DNA of 64,000 bases from Chloroflexota bacterium (GTDB lineage: Bacteria; Chloroflexota; UBA11872): NCBI GenBank assembly GCA_022824495.1, contig JAJDZU010000024.1, forward strand, positions 1 through 64,000, given 5' to 3'. The notes under the pieces were generated by a model. That model was not told the DNA's origin and made no database searches. It saw only the letters and a program-made list of their open reading frames with translations. A program made the translations under genes and the position numbers. Below are positions 47,536 through 58,587 of this stretch, piece after piece. Each line of letters opens with the position of its first letter. Positions within the stretch are counted from its first letter, which is position 1.

Positions 47536-49299
47536 ATGCAACGCATGTCGCGGCTCTTTGCCCGCACGCTTCGCGACGATCCCGCCGAGGCGTCGATCGT
47601 CTCCCACCGCCTGCTCCTGCGCGCCGGCTACATCCGGCCCTTGGGCGCCGGCATCTACAGCCTGTTGCCGCTGGGCTGGCGGGTGCACTGCCGCGTGGTG
47701 CAGATCGTGCGTGAGGAGATGGACCGCATCGGCTGCCAGGAACTGCTGATGCCCGTCGTCCACCCTTCGGACCTCTGGGAGCGCACCGGCCGGTTCCACA
47801 CGGTCGGCTCCGAGATGGCCCGCCTCAAGGACCGCTGGGGCCGCGACATGGTCCTGGCCATGACCCACGAGGAGGTCGCCACCGAGCTTGGCCAGTGGGT
47901 CGCCTCCTCCTACCGCCAGCTGCCCGTCTGCATCTACCACTTCCAGACCAAGTTCCGCGACGAACCGCGCCCCCGCGGCGGCCTGCTGCGAGTCCGCGAG
48001 TTCACCATGAAAGATGCCTACAGCTTCGACACCGACCTGGAGACCCAGGAGGCCACCTACCAGGACTTCATGGAGGCCTACCTGCGCTCCTTCCGCCGCT
48101 GCGGCATCGAACCGGCCATCGTCGAGTCCGACGCCGGCGCCATGCGCGGTTCCGGCGCCCACGAGTTCCACTGCCTCACCGAGGCCGGCGAAGACACGCT
48201 GGTCGTCAGCGCCTCGGGCGACTACGCCGCCAACATCGAGATTGCCACGGCCCAGAAGCCCGTCTTCGACCACGGCGAACCGCAACCCGTCGAAAGGGTC
48301 GCCACGCCCGGCCAGGAAACCATCGACGACGTGGCCGCCTTCCTGGGCGTGGAAACTCACCAGACCCTCAAGGCCGTCTTCTACTGGACCGGCGACGCCC
48401 TGGCCTTCGTCGCCATCCGCGGCGACCTGCAGGTCAACGAGGCCAAACTCCGCACCCTCCTGCAAGCCCCCGACCTGCGCCTCGCCGCCGACCAGGAGCT
48501 TGAAGCCGCCGGCCTCGTCGCCGGCTACGCCTCACCCGTCGGCCTGTCCAACGTCACCGTCGTCGTCGACGACTCCGTCGAGTCCGCCACCAACCTCGTC
48601 GCCGGGGCCAACGAGCCCGGCTACCACCTCACCAACGTCAACTTTCCGCGCGACTTCCAGGCCGACCTGCGCGGCGACATCGCCCAGGTGCGCTCCGGCG
48701 ACCGCAGCATTGATGGCGACGAGCCGCTGCAGCTGATGACCGGCATCGAGATCGGCAACACCTTCAAGCTCGGCACCTTCTACAGCGACAAGCTGGACGC
48801 CCAGTACCTGGGCGCCGACGGCCGCCGCCACCCCTTCGTCATGGGCTCCTACGGTATCGGCATCGGTCGCCTCGCCGCCTCGGTGGTGGAGCGCTACCAC
48901 GACAGTGACGGCATCGTCTGGCCCGTCAGCGTCGCCCCCTACGACGTCCACATCGTGCAACTGGGTAAAGGTGACGTAGCCGCTGACGCCGAGCGCCTGG
49001 CCGGGGAACTGGAAGAAGCCGGCCTCTCCGTCCTGCTGGACGACCGCGGCGACAGCGCCGGCGTCAAGTTCAACGACGCCGACCTCATCGGCCTGCCCTT
49101 CCGCTGCACCGTCAGCCGCCGCACCCTGGCCGCCTCCGCCGTCGAGTTCAAACCCCGCGCCGCCAGCGACCGCCAGTCCATCCCCCGCGACCAGATCGTC
49201 AGCACCGTGCTTGAGGCCCGCGCCGAGGCCCTAGCCGCCTTGACCCCGGACGCACCCGTATCGATGCCCCCGATCAGCACATCCGGAGGCAACCCCTAG
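47536..49299 (+). CDS. proS: prolyl-tRNA synthetase (bacterial type)
   Basis: Charges tRNA-Pro. The 587-aa product has class II motif 1 around 'GIYSLLPLGWRVHCRV', motif 2 in 'FQTKFRDEPRPRGGLLRVRE' and motif 3 in 'VMGSYGIGIGRLAASVVE'. Between motifs 2 and 3 lies the YbaK-type editing insertion ('DDVAAFLGVETHQTLKAVFY', 'LSNVTVVVDDSVE'), which marks the bacterial form. The anticodon-binding domain ends the protein, with a Pro/Ser tail. ATG 47536 or 47545 are both possible starts. Confidence 0.96.
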   Translation: MQRMSRLFARTLRDDPAEASIVSHRLLLRAGYIRPLGAGIYSLLPLGWRVHCRVVQIVREEMDRIGCQELLMPVVHPSDLWERTGRFHTVGSEMARLKDRWGRDMVLAMTHEEVATELGQWVASSYRQLPVCIYHFQTKFRDEPRPRGGLLRVREFTMKDAYSFDTDLETQEATYQDFMEAYLRSFRRCGIEPAIVESDAGAMRGSGAHEFHCLTEAGEDTLVVSASGDYAANIEIATAQKPVFDHGEPQPVERVATPGQETIDDVAAFLGVETHQTLKAVFYWTGDALAFVAIRGDLQVNEAKLRTLLQAPDLRLAADQELEAAGLVAGYASPVGLSNVTVVVDDSVESATNLVAGANEPGYHLTNVNFPRDFQADLRGDIAQVRSGDRSIDGDEPLQLMTGIEIGNTFKLGTFYSDKLDAQYLGADGRRHPFVMGSYGIGIGRLAASVVERYHDSDGIVWPVSVAPYDVHIVQLGKGDVAADAERLAGELEEAGLSVLLDDRGDSAGVKFNDADLIGLPFRCTVSRRTLAASAVEFKPRAASDRQSIPRDQIVSTVLEARAEALAALTPDAPVSMPPISTSGGNP

Positions 49300-49359: not shown

Positions 49360-50187
49360 TCAGCCCTGCGGCTTGTAGGCGATGCTCTCGCCGTAGGCCA
49401 CGGCGCCAAACGCGCCCGGGTGGCTCATCCACCGCTTCAGCGCCTGCTCCAGGTTATCCAGCTGCTGCTGCGTCGCCACGCCGTACGCCGTCGCCGAGGA
49501 GCGAACATCGGCCGAGAAGAACCAGTTTTCGATGACGCGGGAGAAATAGCCAATGTCTGCTTCTGTTGTGTAACACGTGAACGAAGCCGTCGCCCTTACG
49601 TCGGTGAACCCCGCGTCCAACAGATGGCGCTTCAGGTCCCGTCCGATATTGGGGTGCCCGTCATCGGCGGTCATGAGCTCTGCCAGCGTGAGCCACGCGT
49701 CGTTGATGACTTCGAAGTCCGGCGCCAGAAACGAATTCTCGAGGATCCACTCCCGCACGGAAATCAGCCCGCCGGGCTTCAACACCCGCTTCGCCTCGGC
49801 AAGCACGGCCTCGGTATCGGGAACATGGGCAAGGATCGCGTGGCCGTGAACGACATCGAATCGGTCGTCGTCGAACGCGAGCCCGGTCACGTCGCCAACC
49901 CGGAACGTCGCGTTGTCGTGCCCGCCCGCTTCAGCGACCGACCTCGCCAGGTCCACCTGCGACGGCTCCATGTCTACGCCGTACAACGCCCCGGGGGCTA
50001 TCGCCTCGGCCAAGCCAACCGACAGGGTGCCCGGTCCACATCCCAGGTCAAGTACCCGCAGGCCGGGCTTCAGGTGCGGGAGCAGATGCGCGGCGTGGGA
50101 GTGCACCGTGTGCCGCCGGAGATGCTGGAGCATGCTCTCACTGAAGCCGAACGTGTAATACGGCGTGCCGGACGTCTCGTCGGTCAT
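49360..50187 (-). CDS. UbiE/Methyltransf_11-type methyltransferase
   Basis: SAM-dependent methyltransferase, 275 aa. 'LRVLDLGCGPGTLSVGLAEA' is motif I, 'LYGVDMEPSQVDLAR' motif II, 'FDVVHGHAILAHVPD' motif IV and 'EAKRVLKPGGLISVREW' motif VI. The N-terminal 'MLQHLRRHTVHSHAAHLLPHL' is typical of a group of bacterial methyltransferases with unknown substrates. It is convergent with proS. Confidence 0.85.
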   Translation of the reverse strand: MTDETSGTPYYTFGFSESMLQHLRRHTVHSHAAHLLPHLKPGLRVLDLGCGPGTLSVGLAEAIAPGALYGVDMEPSQVDLARSVAEAGGHDNATFRVGDVTGLAFDDDRFDVVHGHAILAHVPDTEAVLAEAKRVLKPGGLISVREWILENSFLAPDFEVINDAWLTLAELMTADDGHPNIGRDLKRHLLDAGFTDVRATASFTCYTTEADIGYFSRVIENWFFSADVRSSATAYGVATQQQLDNLEQALKRWMSHPGAFGAVAYGESIAYKPQG

Positions 50188-50498
50188 CAGTGCTCTCAGA
50201 CCCTGCGGGGGTCGACTCGCAACCCTCCGGGCAGCCCGCGATTGTCAAGCCGCCGCCGCCCACGGGTCAAATCCACCGGCGCACCCTGGCCGCTCTGACT
50301 CCGGCCGCACCCGGGTGGCCACCCCTCCACTCGAAGCCACGGCCGTTGTCCGCCAACGATTCGTCCTTGGGGCGGCCTGGACCGAGCATCCGTCAGTTCA
50401 TTCCGAGTCGCGGGCCTGGCCCCATTCGCCGGATGTCACCCCGCGCCTAGAATGTCCCCGATCCCGCCACCTGACGCGGCGGCTGATAGGGCGTGGGC
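50188..50498. other. intergenic region
   Basis: About 310 bases between divergent genes, presumably holding both promoters. No clear RNA gene, repeat or hairpin with T-tract is seen. The last 40 bases before 50499 should hold the leader of the first array gene. Confidence 0.4.
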
Positions 50499-51611
50499 AT
50501 GTCGTGGATTAGAGATCCGCAACGCGATTCGCGCGAAGACATTCGCGCGGCTCAGCAGGCCCTGGTGTACGCGGGCTATCCGCACGGCGATGCCGTGGCC
50601 GCGGTCACGACCCACCTCCATCGCGTCCGCGCCGCCCTGGCCGCCCCGCGCCATGCCGCCGTTGCCGGATTCCTGACCGGCGCGTCCATGGTATTCGGCG
50701 CGTTTCTGGTGCTCACCCTGGCGCTGGGTGGCCTTGGCCTGGTGATGGGCGCTACCGGAGATTCAGGGACTCCCGGCCAACTCGTTCCCGCCCCACCCGC
50801 CGCGCCCTCAGCCCCGCAAGCCGACCCGGACCCCGGATCGCCGCTTGGGGTCCTGCCGGCGGTGGCGGTGGCCGCGCCGGTCCTGGGCCTGGCCGGCGCG
50901 GGCATGTCGCGCGTCACGCGCAACCGCTGGCGCCGCGCCGGCGTCCTGCAAACCTTCGGCGACCTGCGCCAGCGCCGCCGATATCTCCTGGAAACCGCCG
51001 TCGTCTGGCTGGCCGTGGCCGGGCTCATCGTGCTGATCGTCTGGGCCATGGCCGGCCCTGAATTGGGCGCCACCGTGGCGCAGATGCTGGCCTTCTTTGG
51101 AGTGCCGGTCGGCGCGGCCGCCTTCGCCGCCTGGTTCCCCAAGCTCTATGCCTGGATCCTGCCGCGGGTGAGCCCGGTCGACGCCGCCGCGGCCGCCCGG
51201 CCAATCATCGAACGCGAGGCCGCGCGACAGATCAAGACCGAGCGCGACTTCTACGGCGCCAGCGGCTACGACCGCACCGCCTACGACCGCAACCGCTGGG
51301 CCGACGAGATCCTGGGGACGGAATCCCAGGGCTACTTCGCCGAGGCCCAGCGCCGCGAAGACAGGGCCCGCGACATCGCCCAGCGTTCCGGGTCGTATTC
51401 GTACGGCCTGTCGGTCGGACGCCGGCTCGCGCGCTACGCCCTGATCACGGGCGTGGCCACGCTGGCCATGTGGTTCTTCATCAGCCGGCTCCTCTGGATC
51501 ATGCTCGTAGATGAGCCTGGCCCCGGGGCGGGCGTCCTGGCCCTGTTCCTCGGCGCCGTCATAGGCCTCGGCCTCACCTGGCTCTACGCCCGCTACTTCG
51601 AGGGCCTATGA
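50499..51611 (+). CDS. DPQRDSR-family membrane protein, full-length copy 1
   Basis: First full member of a family repeated across 50.5-56.9 kb; I do not recognise it as a named family. Order of parts (370 aa): signature 'WIRDPQRDSREDIRAAQQAL'; a helical 'VTTHLHRVRAAL'; a membrane segment; a Pro-rich loop; a second membrane segment; 'RNRWRRAGVLQTFGDL'; two more membrane segments; then 'FPKLYAWILPRVSPVDAAAA', 'ARPIIEREAARQIKTERDFY', and a C-terminal module of two membrane helices ending 'LTWLYARYFEGL'. ATG 50499 (GTG 50493 possible). The role is unknown; the soluble parts probably face the cytoplasm. Confidence 0.7.
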   Translation: MSWIRDPQRDSREDIRAAQQALVYAGYPHGDAVAAVTTHLHRVRAALAAPRHAAVAGFLTGASMVFGAFLVLTLALGGLGLVMGATGDSGTPGQLVPAPPAAPSAPQADPDPGSPLGVLPAVAVAAPVLGLAGAGMSRVTRNRWRRAGVLQTFGDLRQRRRYLLETAVVWLAVAGLIVLIVWAMAGPELGATVAQMLAFFGVPVGAAAFAAWFPKLYAWILPRVSPVDAAAAARPIIEREAARQIKTERDFYGASGYDRTAYDRNRWADEILGTESQGYFAEAQRREDRARDIAQRSGSYSYGLSVGRRLARYALITGVATLAMWFFISRLLWIMLVDEPGPGAGVLALFLGAVIGLGLTWLYARYFEGL

Positions 51612-51642
51612 TCGCCCGGTCGGCACCGCCACCCCGGTCACC

Positions 51643-52095
51643 ATGAGTTCCAGGCGCCGAGCGGACCGCGATCGCGTGCATCGCCCGTTTGCCGATCCGC
51701 TGGAAACCTTCACCGAAAATCCAAGCCGGCCGTCTCGAACCCAGCGTCACCGTGCGGAGGCGGAACGCCGGCAGCAGGCGGAACGCGACGTCGATCGCCT
51801 CGCCGCCGGCCACGATGCGCCGCGCGGCCAACGGCTGCTGATCTACGGGCTGCTCACCGCCCTGATCACCATCATCGGCTGGCGCATGCTGCATTGGTTC
51901 GTCCACTTCAGCTCCGTCAAACCCCTCAGCGGCGGAGGAGCCATCGTGGGCCGCAGCGGCCGCGACATCATCGCCTCCGGCTTCGAGATCCCACCGCCGC
52001 CGCCCGCCTGGATCGATCCCGTCGGCCTCGCCCTCGGCCTGGCCCTGGGCCTCCTCGTCACCTGGATATACGCCCGCTACTTCCAAAACCTGTGA
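51643..52095 (+). CDS. C-terminal-module protein of the DPQRDSR family
   Basis: A 150-aa protein. A charged Arg-rich N-terminus ('RTQRHRAEAERRQQAERDVD') precedes two membrane helices, the second ending 'LLVTWIYARYFQNL', which matches the end of full-length family members ('LTWLYARYFEGL'). It thus equals the C-terminal module without the DPQRDSR head. It begins 31 nt after the first full-length gene and is probably co-transcribed. Role unknown. Confidence 0.65.
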   Translation: MSSRRRADRDRVHRPFADPLETFTENPSRPSRTQRHRAEAERRQQAERDVDRLAAGHDAPRGQRLLIYGLLTALITIIGWRMLHWFVHFSSVKPLSGGGAIVGRSGRDIIASGFEIPPPPPAWIDPVGLALGLALGLLVTWIYARYFQNL

Positions 52096-52187
52096 GCGCC
52101 CGGGATCGCCGGCGGCGGCGTAGCCCACATCGCGGATTCTCAAGGCTTTGCCACCGTTCTCGTCTCGCCCGGCGAGAGAGCTAGCTC

Positions 52188-52592
52188 GTGCAGCTCGACT
52201 TCGCCTTCATCTGCGACTACGCCGACAGCACCTCCAAGGTTGTGGCCATAGGCATCGGGTTCGACCGGATTCATGCCCCCAGCCTCCCCACCCGCCATCC
52301 CCGCCTCTGCGTCGTCGCCCGTTTCCGCGCGCACAAGACTGAAATCGGCTGCAAGCAGGCACGGGTCGTCATCATGGACGCCGACGGCTCCGAAACCGCG
52401 GCGGTCCAGGGCGACGTCGAGTTCACCGACCCGATCGACCGCCTCGAAACCACCGCCACCCTGGTCGTCAACTTCGACAACCTCACCTTCGACCACTACG
52501 GCCCCTACTCCGCCCACGTCCTCCTCGACGGCAACGAAATGCACCGCATGCCCTTCGAAGTCTCCGAACCTCCGGCCAGGGACGACCCGTAG
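52188..52592 (+). CDS. DUF6941-like hypothetical protein
   Basis: A 134-aa soluble protein, 'LDFAFICDYADSTSKVVAIG' followed by 'FDRIHAPSLPTRHPRLCVVA' and 'ARVVIMDADGSETAAVQG', which resembles a small conserved family I associate with DUF6941, seen in many actinobacteria and Chloroflexota. It is beta-strand rich and of unknown function. It starts with GTG and lies between array members, possibly only by chance. Confidence 0.6.
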   Translation: MQLDFAFICDYADSTSKVVAIGIGFDRIHAPSLPTRHPRLCVVARFRAHKTEIGCKQARVVIMDADGSETAAVQGDVEFTDPIDRLETTATLVVNFDNLTFDHYGPYSAHVLLDGNEMHRMPFEVSEPPARDDP

Positions 52593-52608
52593 CGGGGGAG
52601 TTGAGTTC

Positions 52609-53727
52609 ATGCCCTGGCTCTCCGACCCCCAACGCGACTCCCGCGACGACTTCCACACCGCGCCCGACCGGCGCAGGTCGCTTGCGCTTGTGCGAACAGT
52701 CGTGGTCGTCCTGGGCCTTGGCTTGTTTGCGGCTTCCGGGGTCCCGGCGTGCGCCCCCCAGGCATCCACGCCCACCCCGACACCCGTCGCCGCCACGACC
52801 CTGACACTCGCCGCCACCGCGACACCCACCGCCACTGCGACACCCACCGCTACTGCGACCGCGACCCCCACGCCCACCGCCAGCCCCACGCCAACTCCGC
52901 ACGTACGGCCCGACGACCGAGCCGTCCTGGTTGCCCTGTACGAGGCAACCGGCGGCCCGACATGGGTGAACAACACGGGCTGGCTCGGTGACACGTCAAT
53001 CGGCGCTTGGTACGGCGTAATAGTTGACCGTCGCAACCGCGTGATTGAGCTCGACCTGAGCCACAACGGGCTCGAAGGTCCGATACCTGCCGAACTGGGC
53101 CGTCTCGACAGGCTGGAGTGGCTCGACCTCAGCGACAATCGACTCGAGGGGGCCATCCCGGTCGAACTGACCCACATCGCGAGCCTGGAATGGCTCGATC
53201 TCAGCGTCAACCGCCTGCAAGGGCCGATTCCCCCGGAGTTCGCTCGCCTGACCAGGCTCCGCTCGCTGTACCTCGACGAAAACCGGTTGACCGGCGGGGT
53301 CCCGCCTGGACTCGGCGACCTCTACAGGCTGGAGACATTGGTGTTGAGCGAAAACTCCCTTACCGGAGACATCCCCGTGGAGCTCACCAGCCTCGGCAGG
53401 CTTGAGTTTCTGTCGCTGTGGAGCAACCGCTTGACCGGTCCAATCCCGCCCGAGCTCGGTCAACTCACCTACCTTGAGTACCTGGACCTTGGCGGAAACT
53501 CGCTAGAAGGTCCCATACCCTCCACGTTAGGCCACCTGAGCAACCTCGAACTGCTGGAACTGGCTGTCGGGCGAGATTCCAGCGGAACTGGCCGATCTCG
53601 CGTACCTGTCGGATCTGTATGTCCTAGGGAATCGGCTGAGTGGCTGCATACCCCGGGATCTCCAACAGATCGAAAGCAACGACTTTGCCGAGGTTGGTCT
53701 GCCGGTCTGCGAGTCCTGAAGGTGTAG
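52609..53727 (+). pseudogene. leucine-rich-repeat lipoprotein with chimeric N-terminus and C-terminal frameshift
   Basis: The frame from ATG 52609 opens with 'MPWLSDPQRDSRDDFHTA', the DPQRDSR-family head, then changes to a lipoprotein signal ('VLGLGLFAASGVPAC'), a Thr/Pro/Ala linker, and seven 24-residue LRRs of the 'LDLS.N.L.GPIP.EL' type. In repeat eight, at 53561-53570, 11 bases are missing compared with the repeat rule. The shifted frame continues as 'SGEIPAELADLAYLSDLYVL' to a TGA at 53719, whereas the present frame ends at 53727 with unrelated residues. GTG 52690 would give a plain lipoprotein start. Sequencing error cannot be excluded. Confidence 0.75.
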
Positions 53728-53810
53728 GGGACTCCACGCTCGCTGGCCACCATCAGCCGCGCGTTCTGATTGACACGACCCTACGTCGGGAGGTGCCCCA
53801 CGGTCCCGGC

Positions 53811-53894
53811 GTCGTAAAGTAGCCGCGCCACAACGGGCCGTCAGTCCTCCGGGAACAGTTGGGCACGGCGGCCCGCCCGGCGGGGATTGCCTTC
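53811..53894 (+). repeat. conserved leader of the array, copy A
   Basis: From GTCGTAAAGTAGCC to the ATG at 53895 this 84-bp non-coding stretch matches 56275-56358 in sequence and spacing, sharing GCCACAACG, GGCGGCCCG and CCGGCGGGGATTG. A shorter trace (CGTCGTAAAGTA at about 54831) precedes the next gene. Confidence 0.75.
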
Positions 53895-54773
53895 ATGCCT
53901 TGGCTCTCCAACCCCCACCGCGACTCGCGCGAGGACATCCGCGCCACCCAGCAGGCCCTGGTCTACGCGGGCCATCCACGCCGCGAGGCCGTGGCTGAAC
54001 TCGACCTCCATCTGCACCGTGTCCGGGTCGCATTGGCCTCGCCGCGCGACACCGTCCTGGCCGGCTTCCTGGCCGGTGCCGCCATCGCCGTGGCGCTGGC
54101 CCTGGTGGTGGTCGTGACGACGTTAGTGATCGTGGTGGCGATCGGCCCTGGAGTCCCGGTCCAGACGTCTGGCGGCGTCGTCGTTGTGCGCGGAGCGGAA
54201 AGTCCTGGGGCAGCGGACAGGCCGGCCACCGACCCCGGCGATGCTAACCGCGGGCCATCGCTCGACATGCTTGTCTCGGCGGCGGCAATCGAGGTGCTAC
54301 TAGGCTTGGCCGGCGCCGGTTTGGCCTTGGTCTCGCGCAACCGCTGGCGTCGCGCCGGCGCGCTTGAAACCTTCACGGACCTCGACACGCAGCGGAGCTA
54401 CCTGCTCCAGGCCCTGGCGGTCTGGGTCCCGGTCGGTGCGCTCATGCTGCTGGCTGTTGCCGTGCAAGGCGGCGAGCAGGTGGTCGGGGGCGCCGTCATC
54501 GCGCTGGCCTTTGTCGGAGTTCCACTGCTGGCCGTCCTGTTCGACTACGTGTTTCCCAGCCTCTACAAGTGGTTCCTGCCCCGCGTCAGTCGGCTGGACG
54601 CCGCCGCCTTCGCGCGGCCCATCATCGAGCTTGAGTCAGCACGGCGGATCAAGGCCGAGCGCGAGACGTTCCGGCGCGGCGCCTACCACCGTGCCCCCGA
54701 CGACCGAGGCGCCTGGGCAGACGAAGTCCTGGCCCGACTCGACAAGTCCCGCACCACCCGACGCCGACACTAG
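53895..54773 (+). CDS. DPQRDSR-family membrane protein, copy 2
   Basis: A 292-aa paralogue of the gene at 50499. Conserved blocks: 'PWLSNPHRDSREDIRATQQAL', 'LDLHLHRVRVALASPRDTVL' (part 'LHLHRVRVAL'), 'SRNRWRRAGALETFTDLDTQ', 'FPSLYKWFLPRVSRLDAAAF' and 'ARPIIELESARRIKAERETF'. It has four membrane segments but lacks the C-terminal two-helix module ('YARYF') of copy 1, ending with a basic tail. ATG 53895 is set by alignment with the other copies and the conserved leader. Confidence 0.72.
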   Translation: MPWLSNPHRDSREDIRATQQALVYAGHPRREAVAELDLHLHRVRVALASPRDTVLAGFLAGAAIAVALALVVVVTTLVIVVAIGPGVPVQTSGGVVVVRGAESPGAADRPATDPGDANRGPSLDMLVSAAAIEVLLGLAGAGLALVSRNRWRRAGALETFTDLDTQRSYLLQALAVWVPVGALMLLAVAVQGGEQVVGGAVIALAFVGVPLLAVLFDYVFPSLYKWFLPRVSRLDAAAFARPIIELESARRIKAERETFRRGAYHRAPDDRGAWADEVLARLDKSRTTRRRH

Positions 54774-54908
54774 GCCGAGCGCCTCGCTCCGGCAGCCGGA
54801 TCCTCCCGGTGGAGCACCCCGCAGCCTCAGCGTCGTAAAGTAATCAGGGCACGACTGTTCCCAGCGCACCAGGACCGCGGCGCCCGCGGCCCGATCGGCG
54901 GCGAAGAG

Positions 54909-56228
54909 ATGCATCGGCTCTTTGACGCGCAGCGCATCTTCCGCGACGCAGCACTGCCCGACCAAGCGCGACGCCCGACGCTCATCCGCTGGCTGCGGGG
55001 CCCACACGTCGACTCGCCCCACGACATCCAAGCGGCCCGGGAAGCCTTGGTCAGCGTGGGCTATAGCCCCTCGGAAGCAGACCGGGCGCTAACGCGCTAC
55101 GTACGTCGCATTCGCGGCGCTCTAGCCAATCCGGCCGACACCGCCCTGGCGGGGCTGCTAAGTGCTGCGGCAATGGCCATGGCTGTACTGGCCTTACTGA
55201 TCCTGGCGCTGGAAGTGCCCGTGCGCCGTTGGGAGCTTGGGGGGTACTTCGGCTCCTTATACGCCTATGCCAGCGCGCCGCTTGTACCCAACATCATGCC
55301 CGAGGCGCTGCTTGTCCTGGTGGCGCTGTGCGTGGTCGGTGCCAGCACGGCGCTCGTCCTCCGTCATCGCTGGCGGCGTGCGGATCTTCTGAACACCTTC
55401 GATCGCCCGTCCCCATCGCGCATCGCCGTACCTGCCTGGCTAGGCGCAGCCGGACTCCTGCTCCTGGAGGCTGGCCTGACCGTGTTCGTTGGCTGGTGGC
55501 TAATCGTCGTCGACCTTGTGGGCGAGTCGACGCAGTTGCTAACGCTCCAAGCGGTTGTTCGGCGTCCGCTGATTGGCACGCTTGCACAAGCCTTGATCTT
55601 CTTGGGTATTCCGCTAGGCGCCCTGGCATTCGCGACTTGGTTCCCGGGCCTCCACGCCTGGATCCTGCCGCGGGTGACTCAGGTGAACGCCGCCGCCCAC
55701 GCGCGGCCCATCGTCGAGCGTGAAGCCGCTCGCCAAGCCGCCGCGGCCCGCGAACTCTACTCGCGCAGCGCCTACCGCTGGGCCAACCATGTGACCCGCA
55801 CATCACGCCCCCGATCTGGCAGAGCGTCGCACGCCCCCGAATTATCCAGACCCCGCACCGCCCATAGGTCCAGGGCTCGTCGGAGCGCGGCCCGTCGCTG
55901 GCGGTCGCTGGGATGGAGTTCCCGGCTGCTGCGCCTGAGCCGCTACGGCCTGCTCACGAGCGTCATTACACTTGCGGTCTGGCGTCTCCCGCACATCTTG
56001 TCCTGGATCTACAGACCTGAGTCTGTCGGAAGATACGGCCACGTCATCGGTCACCCTATTCCCGGATACGGAGCCTTTGTTACCCGCACCAAGGCTGAAG
56101 TAGCCGATGCTGGGCTTCTAGCTAGTTCCGAATTTGCCGCTTGGGTAGACCCGCTTGCTCTGCTGGGTGGGCTGGCGCTGGGTGCGGGCGTCACTTGGGC
56201 CTACGCCCGGTATGTTGGGAATCCTTGA
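54909..56228 (+). CDS. DPQRDSR-family membrane protein, divergent copy 3
   Basis: A 439-aa member with an N-terminal extension of about 25 residues before 'LIRWLRGPHVDSPHDIQAAREAL', a degenerate signature. Later blocks are kept: 'RHRWRRADLLNTFDR', 'FPGLHAWILPRVTQVNAAAH' and 'ARPIVEREAARQAAAARELY', followed by a C-terminal module ending 'GVTWAYARYVGNP'. About six membrane segments are predicted. It is the most diverged full-length copy. No clear ribosome site; ATG 54909 follows GAAGAG. Confidence 0.68.
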   Translation: MHRLFDAQRIFRDAALPDQARRPTLIRWLRGPHVDSPHDIQAAREALVSVGYSPSEADRALTRYVRRIRGALANPADTALAGLLSAAAMAMAVLALLILALEVPVRRWELGGYFGSLYAYASAPLVPNIMPEALLVLVALCVVGASTALVLRHRWRRADLLNTFDRPSPSRIAVPAWLGAAGLLLLEAGLTVFVGWWLIVVDLVGESTQLLTLQAVVRRPLIGTLAQALIFLGIPLGALAFATWFPGLHAWILPRVTQVNAAAHARPIVEREAARQAAAARELYSRSAYRWANHVTRTSRPRSGRASHAPELSRPRTAHRSRARRSAARRWRSLGWSSRLLRLSRYGLLTSVITLAVWRLPHILSWIYRPESVGRYGHVIGHPIPGYGAFVTRTKAEVADAGLLASSEFAAWVDPLALLGGLALGAGVTWAYARYVGNP

Positions 56229-56274
56229 GCGCCAGTATCCGGCTTGGCTTCCCGCACGCCGACAGCGTCTGGTA

Positions 56275-56358
56275 GTCGTACAGTAGCCACGCCACAACGA
56301 GTCGCCGATGCTCCGCGAACGGAGGCCCGCGGCGGCCCGACCGGCGGGGATTGGCTTC
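56275..56358 (+). repeat. conserved leader of the array, copy B
   Basis: Counterpart of 53811-53894, starting GTCGTACAGTAGCC and ending 84 bp later at the ATG 56359. The equal spacing and shared blocks show that the duplications carried upstream DNA with the genes. Confidence 0.75.
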
Positions 56359-56625
56359 ATGCCCTGGTTCTCCGACCCCCAACGCGACTCCCGCGACGAC
56401 ATCCACGCCGCTCAGCAGGCGCTGGTATTCGCCGGCTGCCCGCATTCCCTGGCCGTGGCCGCCTACGAGACCTACTCGCGCTGGAATTTGGCCGGACCGG
56501 GCCACGCCCCGGACCTGGCGCCCCGGTCCGCAGGCCTCGGATCCGACCTCGCCGGGCTAGGCGTGGGCCTGATCCTCGGCGTCGGCCTAACCTGGATACA
56601 CGCCCCCTATCTGGAAGTCCCCTGA
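56359..56625 (+). CDS. DPQRDSR-family protein, internally deleted copy
   Basis: An 88-aa mini-member: the head 'PWFSDPQRDSRDDIHAAQQAL' runs for about 40 residues, then joins, after a short Pro/Arg stretch, to a C-terminal module end 'LGVGLTWIHAPYLEVP'. All middle membrane segments are gone, leaving one hydrophobic segment. It looks like an internal deletion of a full-length gene. Its conserved leader suggests it is still expressed. The stop overlaps the next ATG (TGATG). Confidence 0.6.
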   Translation: MPWFSDPQRDSRDDIHAAQQALVFAGCPHSLAVAAYETYSRWNLAGPGHAPDLAPRSAGLGSDLAGLGVGLILGVGLTWIHAPYLEVP

Positions 56626-56858
56626 TGCAGCGGCTTTCGGATTGCGCGCTTCTCACGGGCGGGACGACGCTCGCCGTCTGGTTCCTGACTCGCTGGGTCG
56701 TTGCCTTGGCCATCCACACGGCTGGCCGGCGGACGGCTCCCATGAACTTCGAACCGCTTGCGAATGGGCTCGGAGTGAATCTGGCAGGCTTGGCCCTTCG
56801 CGTCGTGGTGGGGCTCGGAATCGCCTGGTTCTACACCAACTACGTGGAGGGTCTGTGA
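56625..56858 (+). CDS. C-terminal-module protein of the DPQRDSR family, copy 2
   Basis: A 77-aa protein of two hydrophobic helices, 'GGTTLAVWFLTRWVVALAIH' and 'VVVGLGIAWFYTNYVEGL', matching the C-terminal module of full-length copies. The ATG overlaps the previous stop. With the deletion copy it may be one gene split into head and tail, since head plus tail equals a short full-length member. The TGA overlaps the GTG of a solute-binding-protein fragment. Confidence 0.58.
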   Translation: MQRLSDCALLTGGTTLAVWFLTRWVVALAIHTAGRRTAPMNFEPLANGLGVNLAGLALRVVVGLGIAWFYTNYVEGL

Positions 56859-56984: not shown

Positions 56985-57122
56985 CCCCTCTCCCCGTGGG
57001 AGAGGGTTGGGGAGAGGGTCTTCCGGGCTACCAATCATGGGTTACGCAAAGGTCTCTCCAGGGCGAGAGGGTTGGGCTGAGGGATCTTCCCGGCAACCAA
57101 CTCGGGCTACGCAAGGATCCCT
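56985..57122 (+). repeat. dispersed GC-rich repeat, copies 2 and 3 in tandem
   Basis: Two about 70-bp units (56985-57058 and 57059-57122) share GAGAGGGTTGGG, TCTTCC-GGC, ACCAA and TACGCAA in the same order as 43051-43120. They lie between the fragment start at 56855 and the intact gene start at 57133. Confidence 0.7.
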
Positions 57123-57132
57123 CGGAGCGCCT

Positions 57133-58587
57133 GTGAACACCCCTCGTCCTCGTCTCAACCGCCGCCGCGCCCTCGCCGCCGGCGCGGCCTCCCTGGGCGC
57201 GCTCGCCCTGGCCGCCTGCGGGGAGTCGCCGGCCGAAGAGGCCGCCGGGGCTTTGCCGCATGGCCTCCAGGCCGAGTTGCAACGCAACCTGGAACGCGCC
57301 CGCTCCGAGGCCCGCAACGTCACCGCCGCCGCGCCCCGGTCCGCCGTCAAACTGCCCACCCCCGGCGCCAAGCATCCCGTCACGGTCGCCATGTATCCCA
57401 CCAACCGCATCGGCGGCAGCCTGTTCGGCCAGTTCGTCAATGGTCTGGCCGCGGCCCGCGAGCGCGGCGAGGACCGTTACACCTACGAGGAGGCGTCGCT
57501 GGACTACGGGCGCAACGCCTCCACCTTCAGCATCAGTACCTCACTGGACGCCCTGCAGAACCAAAAGCCGGATCTGGTCATCTTCTTTAGGGCCGACCAG
57601 GCCGACCTGCTGGCCAACGACCGGCTGGCGCCGCTGGACGACCTTCTCGTTTCGGACCCCGACTTCAACGCCGCCGACTTCTGGCCGGGACTGCTGGAGA
57701 CCGGCAAACACGAAGGCGTGCAGTTCGGGATGCCGGTGGCGGTCTCGCCCCATGTGCTGTTGTTCAGTCGCCAGTGGGCGCTCGAGCAACAGGTCGAACC
57801 GCCCGCCCCCGATCCGCAGACCTTCGACGCTGAAGTCTTCCTCGACACCGTGCGCGCCCTCCACGTGGAGCCGCCGCCTTCGGGCGGCTTGGGCGGCATG
57901 GGCTACATCTCGCGCTTCACGCCGGAGCCCGATGGCCAGGGCGACTACTCGGCCTCGCCGTCGCCATACGAGTTGTTGCAGTCGGCCGTCGGCGACCTTC
58001 GGGGACCCGACAACGACTTCGCGCCCCTCACCTCGCCGCCCGCCGTCCAGGTCGCCGAGTTCCTGCGCGCCTGGGTGCACGACCACCGCCTGGCCATCAC
58101 CGATGGCCGCTCCACCCGCTCATTTCAGCGCACCGGCCAGTTCGGCTTCGCCGGCACCATCCTGGCCTTTATCCCGCCAAGCCGGCTTATCGGCAGCAAC
58201 ATTGATATCTATCCGCTGCCCAACATGGGCACCGGCCGCAGCCCCGTCTTCGTCCACGCCATGCTCGGCGTGCTGGCCGATTCGCCGAACCCCGACCTCG
58301 CCTACGACGCCATGCGCCATCTCACCGCCGGCCTCCGCGCCAGTTCAATCCTCCCGGCCACCCGCATCTCCGCCGAGGGCGTCGCCGCCCGCGCCACCGA
58401 ACTGCCCCCCGAAGGCGCCAACCTCGTCGAGCTACTCATGAGGAACGCCACCTACTCCACCCTCAGCCGCCGCCAGGCCGGCCTCATCACCAACGGCATC
58501 GTCGGCAACATCATCTTCGGCGACCAACACCCCGAAGATGCCCTCCAAGCCATCGTCGATCAGCTACGCGCCGAGGACGCTGAGTAG
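57133..58587 (+). CDS. exported lipoprotein, ABC-type extracellular solute-binding protein-like
   Basis: A 484-aa lipoprotein. 'RLNRRRALAAGAASLGALAL' followed by 'AACGE' combines a twin-arginine-like motif with a lipobox. The body has the periplasmic-binding-protein pattern: 'LDALQNQKPDLVIFFRADQA', 'GMPVAVSPHVLLFSRQWALE' and 'DLAYDAMRHLTAGLRAS'. It resembles bacterial type 1 (sugar/oligosaccharide) binding proteins, but no ABC permease or ATPase is adjacent, so the transport link is only by fold. GTG 57133 follows GGAG; the longer frame runs through the DNA repeats. A hairpin at 58587-58612 follows. Confidence 0.75.
   Translation: MNTPRPRLNRRRALAAGAASLGALALAACGESPAEEAAGALPHGLQAELQRNLERARSEARNVTAAAPRSAVKLPTPGAKHPVTVAMYPTNRIGGSLFGQFVNGLAAARERGEDRYTYEEASLDYGRNASTFSISTSLDALQNQKPDLVIFFRADQADLLANDRLAPLDDLLVSDPDFNAADFWPGLLETGKHEGVQFGMPVAVSPHVLLFSRQWALEQQVEPPAPDPQTFDAEVFLDTVRALHVEPPPSGGLGGMGYISRFTPEPDGQGDYSASPSPYELLQSAVGDLRGPDNDFAPLTSPPAVQVAEFLRAWVHDHRLAITDGRSTRSFQRTGQFGFAGTILAFIPPSRLIGSNIDIYPLPNMGTGRSPVFVHAMLGVLADSPNPDLAYDAMRHLTAGLRASSILPATRISAEGVAARATELPPEGANLVELLMRNATYSTLSRRQAGLITNGIVGNIIFGDQHPEDALQAIVDQLRAEDAE

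Follow-up and report, generated by a model that had tools for sequence, protein, structure and literature searches.

A modular membrane-protein family centred on one Chloroflexota genus, and the inner-membrane complex that it may form

What do seven neighbouring open reading frames (ORFs) of unequal length make together, when all of them carry parts of one shared sequence? The question is raised by an array in a 64,000-nt window (the whole stretch of DNA analysed here) of contig JAJDZU010000024.1 from a Chloroflexota bacterium, in which genes A, Ct, B and C, the remnant D, gene E and a fusion to a leucine-rich-repeat (LRR) gene lie close together (Table 1). At the core of the family would stand a protein of six membrane helices whose two termini both face the cytoplasm. 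Three modules would make it up: a cytoplasmic head folded as a helical hairpin, a body of four helices and, at the C-terminus, a pair of helices. Since these modules occur both split (the bodies B and 277 type; the pairs Ct and E) and fused (A, C and the P, M and 485 types), body and pair are suggested to work together. We consider it possible, and the best of the explanations weighed here, that the ORFs encode the components of a single modular complex of the inner membrane, specific to this lineage, which would serve as a scaffold or sensor and link an outer lipoprotein with partners in the cytoplasm.

A family of separable modules

The initial annotation had reported seven ORFs with shared sequence, and both the ORFs and their kinship are borne out by pairwise phmmer searches, in which most pairs exceed the best score of 700 shuffled sequences (11.2 bits): A-B scores 233 bits, A-C 152, A-D 55, A-Ct 26, A-E 21, and the LRR fusion with D 21–24. 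The pairs that do not rise above the shuffled level are LRR-B (10.5 bits), C-E (2.5–4.3 bits), B-Ct and B-E. B itself has no helix pair, which accounts for the last two, and since LRR-B falls below the control, the assignment of the LRR head rests on D.

Nine further loci were compared with the window, so that the array could be read in 10 of the 13 genomes of the genus; all counts are our own. A, Ct and a terminal gene for a lipoprotein resembling solute-binding proteins (SBPs) are constant (10/10 each), and the remainder varies between arrays, with a full-length P-like copy in eight, the DUF6941 gene and B in seven each, E in three, and C and the head-LRR fusion in two each. The arrays hold 3 to 8 ORFs and 2 to 4 head-bearing bodies. 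A pattern for the head occurs 18 times in the DNA of the 13 genomes, always inside an array, and the control pattern does not occur. The genomes without an array are G002, G003 and G007. G002 and G003 can be said to lack it at the site, because G002 is a single contig and the site of G003 lies on one contig; in G007 the contig stops about where A would begin, and the rest of this genome yielded only the dispersed types, along with a partial match (E 0.0014) that is weak and interrupted by a stop.

Some of the shortened ORFs are genes conserved in their own right; the two-helix genes are not debris, and Ct is no truncated copy. Ct directly follows A in all ten arrays, measures 149–158 aa, and the copies in the other nine arrays are 51–91% identical to that of the window. 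The B product ends once its fourth predicted helix is complete, in the window copy as in each of the 7 genomes with a B gene. It had been listed beside A and C as a third full-length member; A and C keep this status, and B does not. In the same way, Ct and E do consist of the C-terminal two-helix module, as first described, but they are not debris: Ct is orthologous in 10/10 arrays, and G002 has a lone relative of both. The median dN/dS is 0.22 for A, 0.37 for Ct (45 pairs) and a relaxed 0.43 for B.

The failure of the initial annotation to place the family is shared by our searches, which compared the membrane members with Pfam, NCBIfam, PHROGs, PADLOC and the sequences and folds of the PDB and brought up nothing convincing. 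Judged by the libraries and collections searched, this speaks for a membrane-protein family that has not been described; it is nameless, so we do not claim its absence from print. Matches to Pfam are scattered, and those to NCBIfam are weak (YccF at 0.021 to A; cytochrome ExtP at 0.11 and RuvA at 0.17 to C; FxsA at 0.016 to the 485 type). Seven weak PDB profile hits of A to a G-protein-coupled receptor (E 0.14 to 1) were taken as chance. The only family profiles matched by array ORFs at or above the cut-off, LRR and DUF6941, belong to the two non-membrane ORFs, and a literature search on DUF6941 found no paper. A phage or plasmid origin of the family was also considered and is argued against by the lack of relatives of A in viral contigs, phages and plasmids.

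Predicted topology and conservation

Hydropathy gives A six helices, and the positive charges of its successive loops alternate (7/0/9/0/18/0/1), so that A is predicted to have both termini inside and outer loops of 33, 7 and 6 residues. Within the array family (26 rows), conservation is highest in the predicted cytoplasmic parts, namely the head (0.64), the loop after helix 2 (0.62), the segment after helix 4 (0.71) and the tail (0.70), versus 0.35–0.54 in the helices and 0.35, 0.31 and 0.27 in the outer loops. Ten diverse rows show a similar but weaker order (head 0.38, segment after helix 4 0.39, helices 0.19–0.35, outer loops 0.24–0.26). The AlphaFold model of A reaches a mean predicted local distance difference test score (pLDDT) of 67.7 and a predicted template modelling score (pTM) of 0.57, and includes a two-helix head with block-mean pLDDT of 81–87 over residues 11–60; searched against PDB folds, it gave 0/39 matches at E <= 0.001. 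The model of Ct has a mean pLDDT of 62.4 and a pTM of 0.25.

These loops bear on the role first guessed for the array, a surface protein diversified by copy number. Copy number does differ between genomes, and the fused LRR protein is lipoprotein-like, but under the predicted topology the outer loops of A are short and are its least conserved parts, and most of the hydrophilic mass is cytoplasmic, as are the best conserved parts. The exception is the outer loop of Ct, which is conserved (0.73, and 0.81 for residues 98–123, next to 0.87 in the second helix and 0.95 in the tail) rather than diversified. We therefore regard a diversified surface protein as the least likely explanation of all, and a very improbable one. 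The conservation of this loop makes Ct the best candidate in the array for touching the outer lipoprotein, if any member does.

The head invites a different idea. In HAAS-TM proteins (PF08006), a small helical domain on the cytoplasmic side precedes the membrane part, and the array family is predicted to be built likewise. The family might sense at the membrane and, by means of its cytoplasmic head, keep a transcription regulator bound or set it free, and the conserved small head before the first helix, together with an upstream element common to several members, would suit such a sensor. On the other hand, inspection by eye showed no regulator gene next to the array, and the head has no family match; the HAAS profile gave 0 matches in 41 genomes, but it was silent in 14 control genomes as well, and HAAS is not among the Pfam matches. 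We consider a regulator-holding sensor unlikely.

Lipoprotein and MoxR/VWA neighbours

The gene at the array end matches SBP_bac_8 with 22.8 bits, under the curated Pfam cut-off of 27. A second SBP-like gene, whose product is 36% identical to that of the array, is overlapped by the 485 type by ~34 bp (with the start assigned in G010) in 5/5 loci read (G007 and G009–G012); six genomes have the 485 type, and the sixth, G008, lies outside the loci read. The window genome has four SBP paralogues; its second-SBP locus is present, but no 485 gene was found. Linkage to an SBP-like lipoprotein at two unrelated loci suggests an outer partner.

The same linkage would be expected of a new type of SBP-dependent transporter, in which the lipoprotein captures a solute and the six-helix and two-helix proteins form its path. 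TRAP (tripartite ATP-independent periplasmic) and TTT (tripartite tricarboxylate) transporters are SBP-dependent tripartite systems, and the array is loosely like them in that an SBP-like lipoprotein gene stands beside genes for small multi-helix proteins. By eye and in our own gene calls, no ABC permease gene was recognised as an immediate neighbour of the SBP genes in the window genome, the three dispersed ones included (one ABC pair is ~4.5 kb off), which also fits. The array differs from TRAP and TTT in that no large permease gene was recognised alongside. The helices of A have few polar residues (fractions of 0.05–0.10 in helices 1–4 and 6, and 0.22 in TM5) and no conserved charged residue, and conservation lies on the cytoplasmic side; neither a fold match nor a homologous permease was found, and no SBP gene was recognised alongside the 277-type and M-type genes in the loci read. 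A transporter thus seems improbable to us.

Three types of relatives are dispersed outside the array: the 277-codon-frame, M and 485-codon-frame types. The 277 type lies near asd-like and dapA-like genes (named by eye), and no two-helix partner gene was recognised alongside it in G000 and G002. Upstream of the M type, and on its strand, stand a MoxR-like AAA_5 gene and a VWA gene in 12/13 genomes of the genus, where the linkage in G005 and G011 rests on partial hits ~260 bp beyond the VWA gene. This linkage suggests an inner partner. The VWA protein carries DISGSM, which fits the form of the metal-ion-dependent adhesion site (MIDAS) given in PMC9976466. As described there, NorQ/NorD act on their membrane client via the VWA MIDAS site, and RavA/ViaA are described as acting at the inner membrane (PMC9489729). 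Its place after an AAA_5 gene and a VWA gene whose product has the DISGS motif resembles these MoxR AAA+/VWA systems (NorQ/NorD with cNOR, RavA/ViaA) and would make the M type a candidate client, although its sequence could be related to none of the known clients. At L016 4715-8308, the window genome has second copies, whole or partial, of the M-type gene and of a dehydrogenase gene next to it; between the M-type copies, sequence matching the VWA gene end appears again. In G002, one LRR gene adjoins the M-type gene.

In the inner-membrane complex that we favour, the bodies (B and 277 type) and pairs (Ct and E) that occur separately would probably join one another, and also the fused forms, in one assembly. 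The neighbouring SBP-like lipoprotein would probably sit on the outer face, and in one dispersed branch the MoxR AAA+ ATPase with its VWA protein would probably act on the cytoplasmic face. The complex may then couple the outer lipoprotein, and perhaps its bound ligand, to the cytoplasmic partners.

Several observations weigh against this complex. The presence of B does not follow that of Ct (7 arrays against 10), and gene neighbourhood is no proof of partnership. The remainder of the long inner loop shows lower conservation (0.50 in the array family, 0.23 in the diverse set). The AlphaFold model of A merges helices 3 and 4 (H161-224), unlike the hydropathy topology, and the models of A and Ct are of low to middling confidence and silent on assembly. 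The array loci read have no MoxR/VWA genes nearby, which sets the array apart from the known systems, and the M-type gene of G002 lies 24 kb from the VWA gene. Order- and class-level relatives have the AAA/VWA pair without the family: at the four f2 loci read no membrane gene was recognised after the pair, and at three f4 loci (L136-L138), from another family of the class, it is followed by a gene for an unrelated multi-helix protein with 6-7 predicted helices. Finally, one dispersed SBP gene, with the ABC ATPase/permease pair at a distance of ~4.5 kb, may not be a true orphan.

Growth, rearrangement and spread of the family

The history of the site can be followed between proS and an oligoendopeptidase-like gene, pepF (names by eye). 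Of the six sister-genus genomes, four were read at this site; in three, the two genes are direct neighbours, and in the fourth a 219-codon ORF on the opposite strand separates them. G003 has an SBP-like gene between them. G002 has no array but a lone two-helix gene of 76 aa between proS and the SBP gene; it matches the family profile at positions 263–333 (E 5e-9), as well as Ct, A, E and C of the window in tblastn without composition correction. Since G002 lacks the array, the two-helix module probably predates the array at this site.

Duplication and recombination, which the initial annotation had read from the window, are supported by the 2–4 bodies per array and by a head swap, an LRR landing and a deletion. 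It had also called the process active, which goes further than the data: in the tree, each paralogue type (A, two P types, B, C, the 277 and 485 types and M) groups by itself whatever the species, with weak deep branching, and the main types therefore predate the species. Later rearrangements nevertheless did occur. The head of the P-like copy in G009 is 85% identical in DNA to that of its own A and 92% to those of A in G008 and G005, and its body is at most 59% identical to any other; on these identities, the copy is a head swap. In the tree, this copy and one copy of G005 sit near A on long branches. The fusion of a head to an LRR lipoprotein gene, already noticed in the window, is real and recurs in G006, where the LRR gene is preceded by a P leader and head and followed by a P tail and E. 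Since parts of P lie on both sides, the LRR gene landed inside P. The fused product resembles a lipoprotein, and its LRR domain is of a type with many matches across the genus. Compared with the LRR proteins of these bacteria, what differs here is that the gene carries the head, and in G006 also the leader, of a membrane-protein gene. LRR matches are abundant in each genome of the genus; G010, at the top, has 38 at E <= 1e-25, and a single protein may account for several.

Other copies are broken. D, internally deleted as first described, retains the head and tail of a paralogue and has lost ~870 bp in frame; its closest relatives are of type P1, which is full length in 5/9 other arrays (G001, G004, G008, G011 and G012). 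With every P-like type counted, 8/9 other arrays hold a full-length copy, and G006 keeps the tail only. An extra copy in G005 has an internal stop, and the last part of the head-LRR gene in the window (53560–53727) has slipped out of the frame that its G006 orthologue keeps. Such remnants are what weakly constrained, lineage-specific membrane genes would leave behind while expanding and decaying with little function, and the relaxed dN/dS of B and the near restriction to one genus point the same way. Weak constraint is harder to reconcile with the presence of A in 10/10 arrays at a median dN/dS of 0.22, and with that of Ct in 10/10 with its conserved outer loop. We find it rather unlikely.

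The family is found almost entirely in one genus. A search with protein A gave matches in 14/61 genomes, which are all 13 of the genus and one of the six sister-genus genomes, the latter with a stop-broken fragment. A profile of ten diverse members, in a scan that scored at most five candidates per genome and may therefore let weak relatives escape, was positive in 15/400 genomes across the phylum, adding to the 14 above just one weak match (E 3e-4); 13/15 thus belong to one Chloroflexota genus. A scan of a species-genome collection, suited to close relatives only, gave nine loci, all in Chloroflexi or Chloroflexota metagenome-assembled genomes. The letters RHO and COS in the names of some bins suggest the sponges Rhopaloeides and Coscinoderma, both of which are sampled in PMC8163846. 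Nearly identical, stop-broken remnants of the C-terminal half of the family occur in G005 and in the sister-genus genome G017 (L064 6062-6619 and L063 5008-5564), and their near-identity suggests a recent transfer of a broken piece between the genera. Both remnants adjoin short repeated stretches.

Several members share an 11-bp upstream element, GTCGTAMAGTA, with 3 matches in the window versus 0.01 expected. It has 13 exact matches in the 13 genomes, 10 in the array and 3 elsewhere, and the copies in the array start 74–84 bp before a start codon. Since a reversed control pattern is commoner (32 matches over ten genomes), the placement of the element is notable and not its rarity. Among the 7 B genes only that of the window is preceded by a copy, which we count with the head swap, the LRR landing and the deletion in D as recombination seen directly. 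An alignment of 11 leaders, to which that of G004, with one change in the core, was added by position, contains a further GC-rich block near the start that is mostly conserved. RNA structure in the shared leader has no support (1/14 pairs with two-sided change, covariation term +0.5), and promoter and terminator scans gave no more hits than shuffles. We regard GTCGTAMAGTA as a putative shared promoter or operator.

This element, the DUF6941 gene and the array-end SBP-like gene were not part of the initial annotation. In the left flank, the contigs of G006, G009 and G010 end before proS.

Table 1. Features of the array and its flanks in the 64,000-nt window
Feature	Position	Strand	Description
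proS	47536..49299	+	left flank in 7/10 arrays whose contig reaches that far
methyltransferase-like gene	49360..50187	-	between proS and array; 7/10 array loci
gene A	50499..51611	+	370 aa from ATG (alternative GTG start at 50493); full-length member, predicted 6 TM, N-in/C-in
gene Ct	51643..52095	+	150 aa; stand-alone two-helix member, homologous to C-terminal pair of A
DUF6941 gene	52188..52592	+	PF22091, E 3.6e-29
head-LRR fusion	52609..53727	+	family head (~20 aa) joined to LRR lipoprotein
upstream element GTCGTAMAGTA	53811..53821	+	84 bp before gene B
gene B	53895..54773	+	292 aa; four-helix member without C-terminal pair
upstream element GTCGTAMAGTA	54832..54842	+	77 bp before gene C
gene C	54909..56228	+	439 aa; diverged full-length member
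upstream element GTCGTAMAGTA	56275..56285	+	84 bp before D
D	56359..56625	+	88 aa; remnant of P1-type paralogue, in-frame internal deletion of ~870 bp
gene E	56625..56858	+	77 aa; stand-alone two-helix member; its ATG shares one base with the stop of D
orphan SBP-like lipoprotein gene	57007..58587	+	array end; internal start at 57127 likely

Lineage-restricted orphan membrane families are a known kind. This one is unusual for modules that occur both split and fused, for a leader-plus-head that can move and for its double linkage. The array offers a traceable case of an orphan membrane-protein family arising and spreading at one site, from proS-pepF through proS-SBP and proS-two-helix-SBP to the arrays. 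A bolder proposal, which we think rather unlikely, is that a new class of modular inner-membrane machine was born in one Chloroflexota genus. It would be built of split or fused four-helix and two-helix subunits, capped on the outer side by SBP-like lipoproteins and, in one branch, driven on the inner side by a MoxR/VWA ATPase, and varied by a leader-plus-head cassette that recombines onto other genes, including that of an LRR lipoprotein. If the MoxR/VWA and lipoprotein links are true, the family would represent a lineage-specific envelope machine in a mostly uncultured group.

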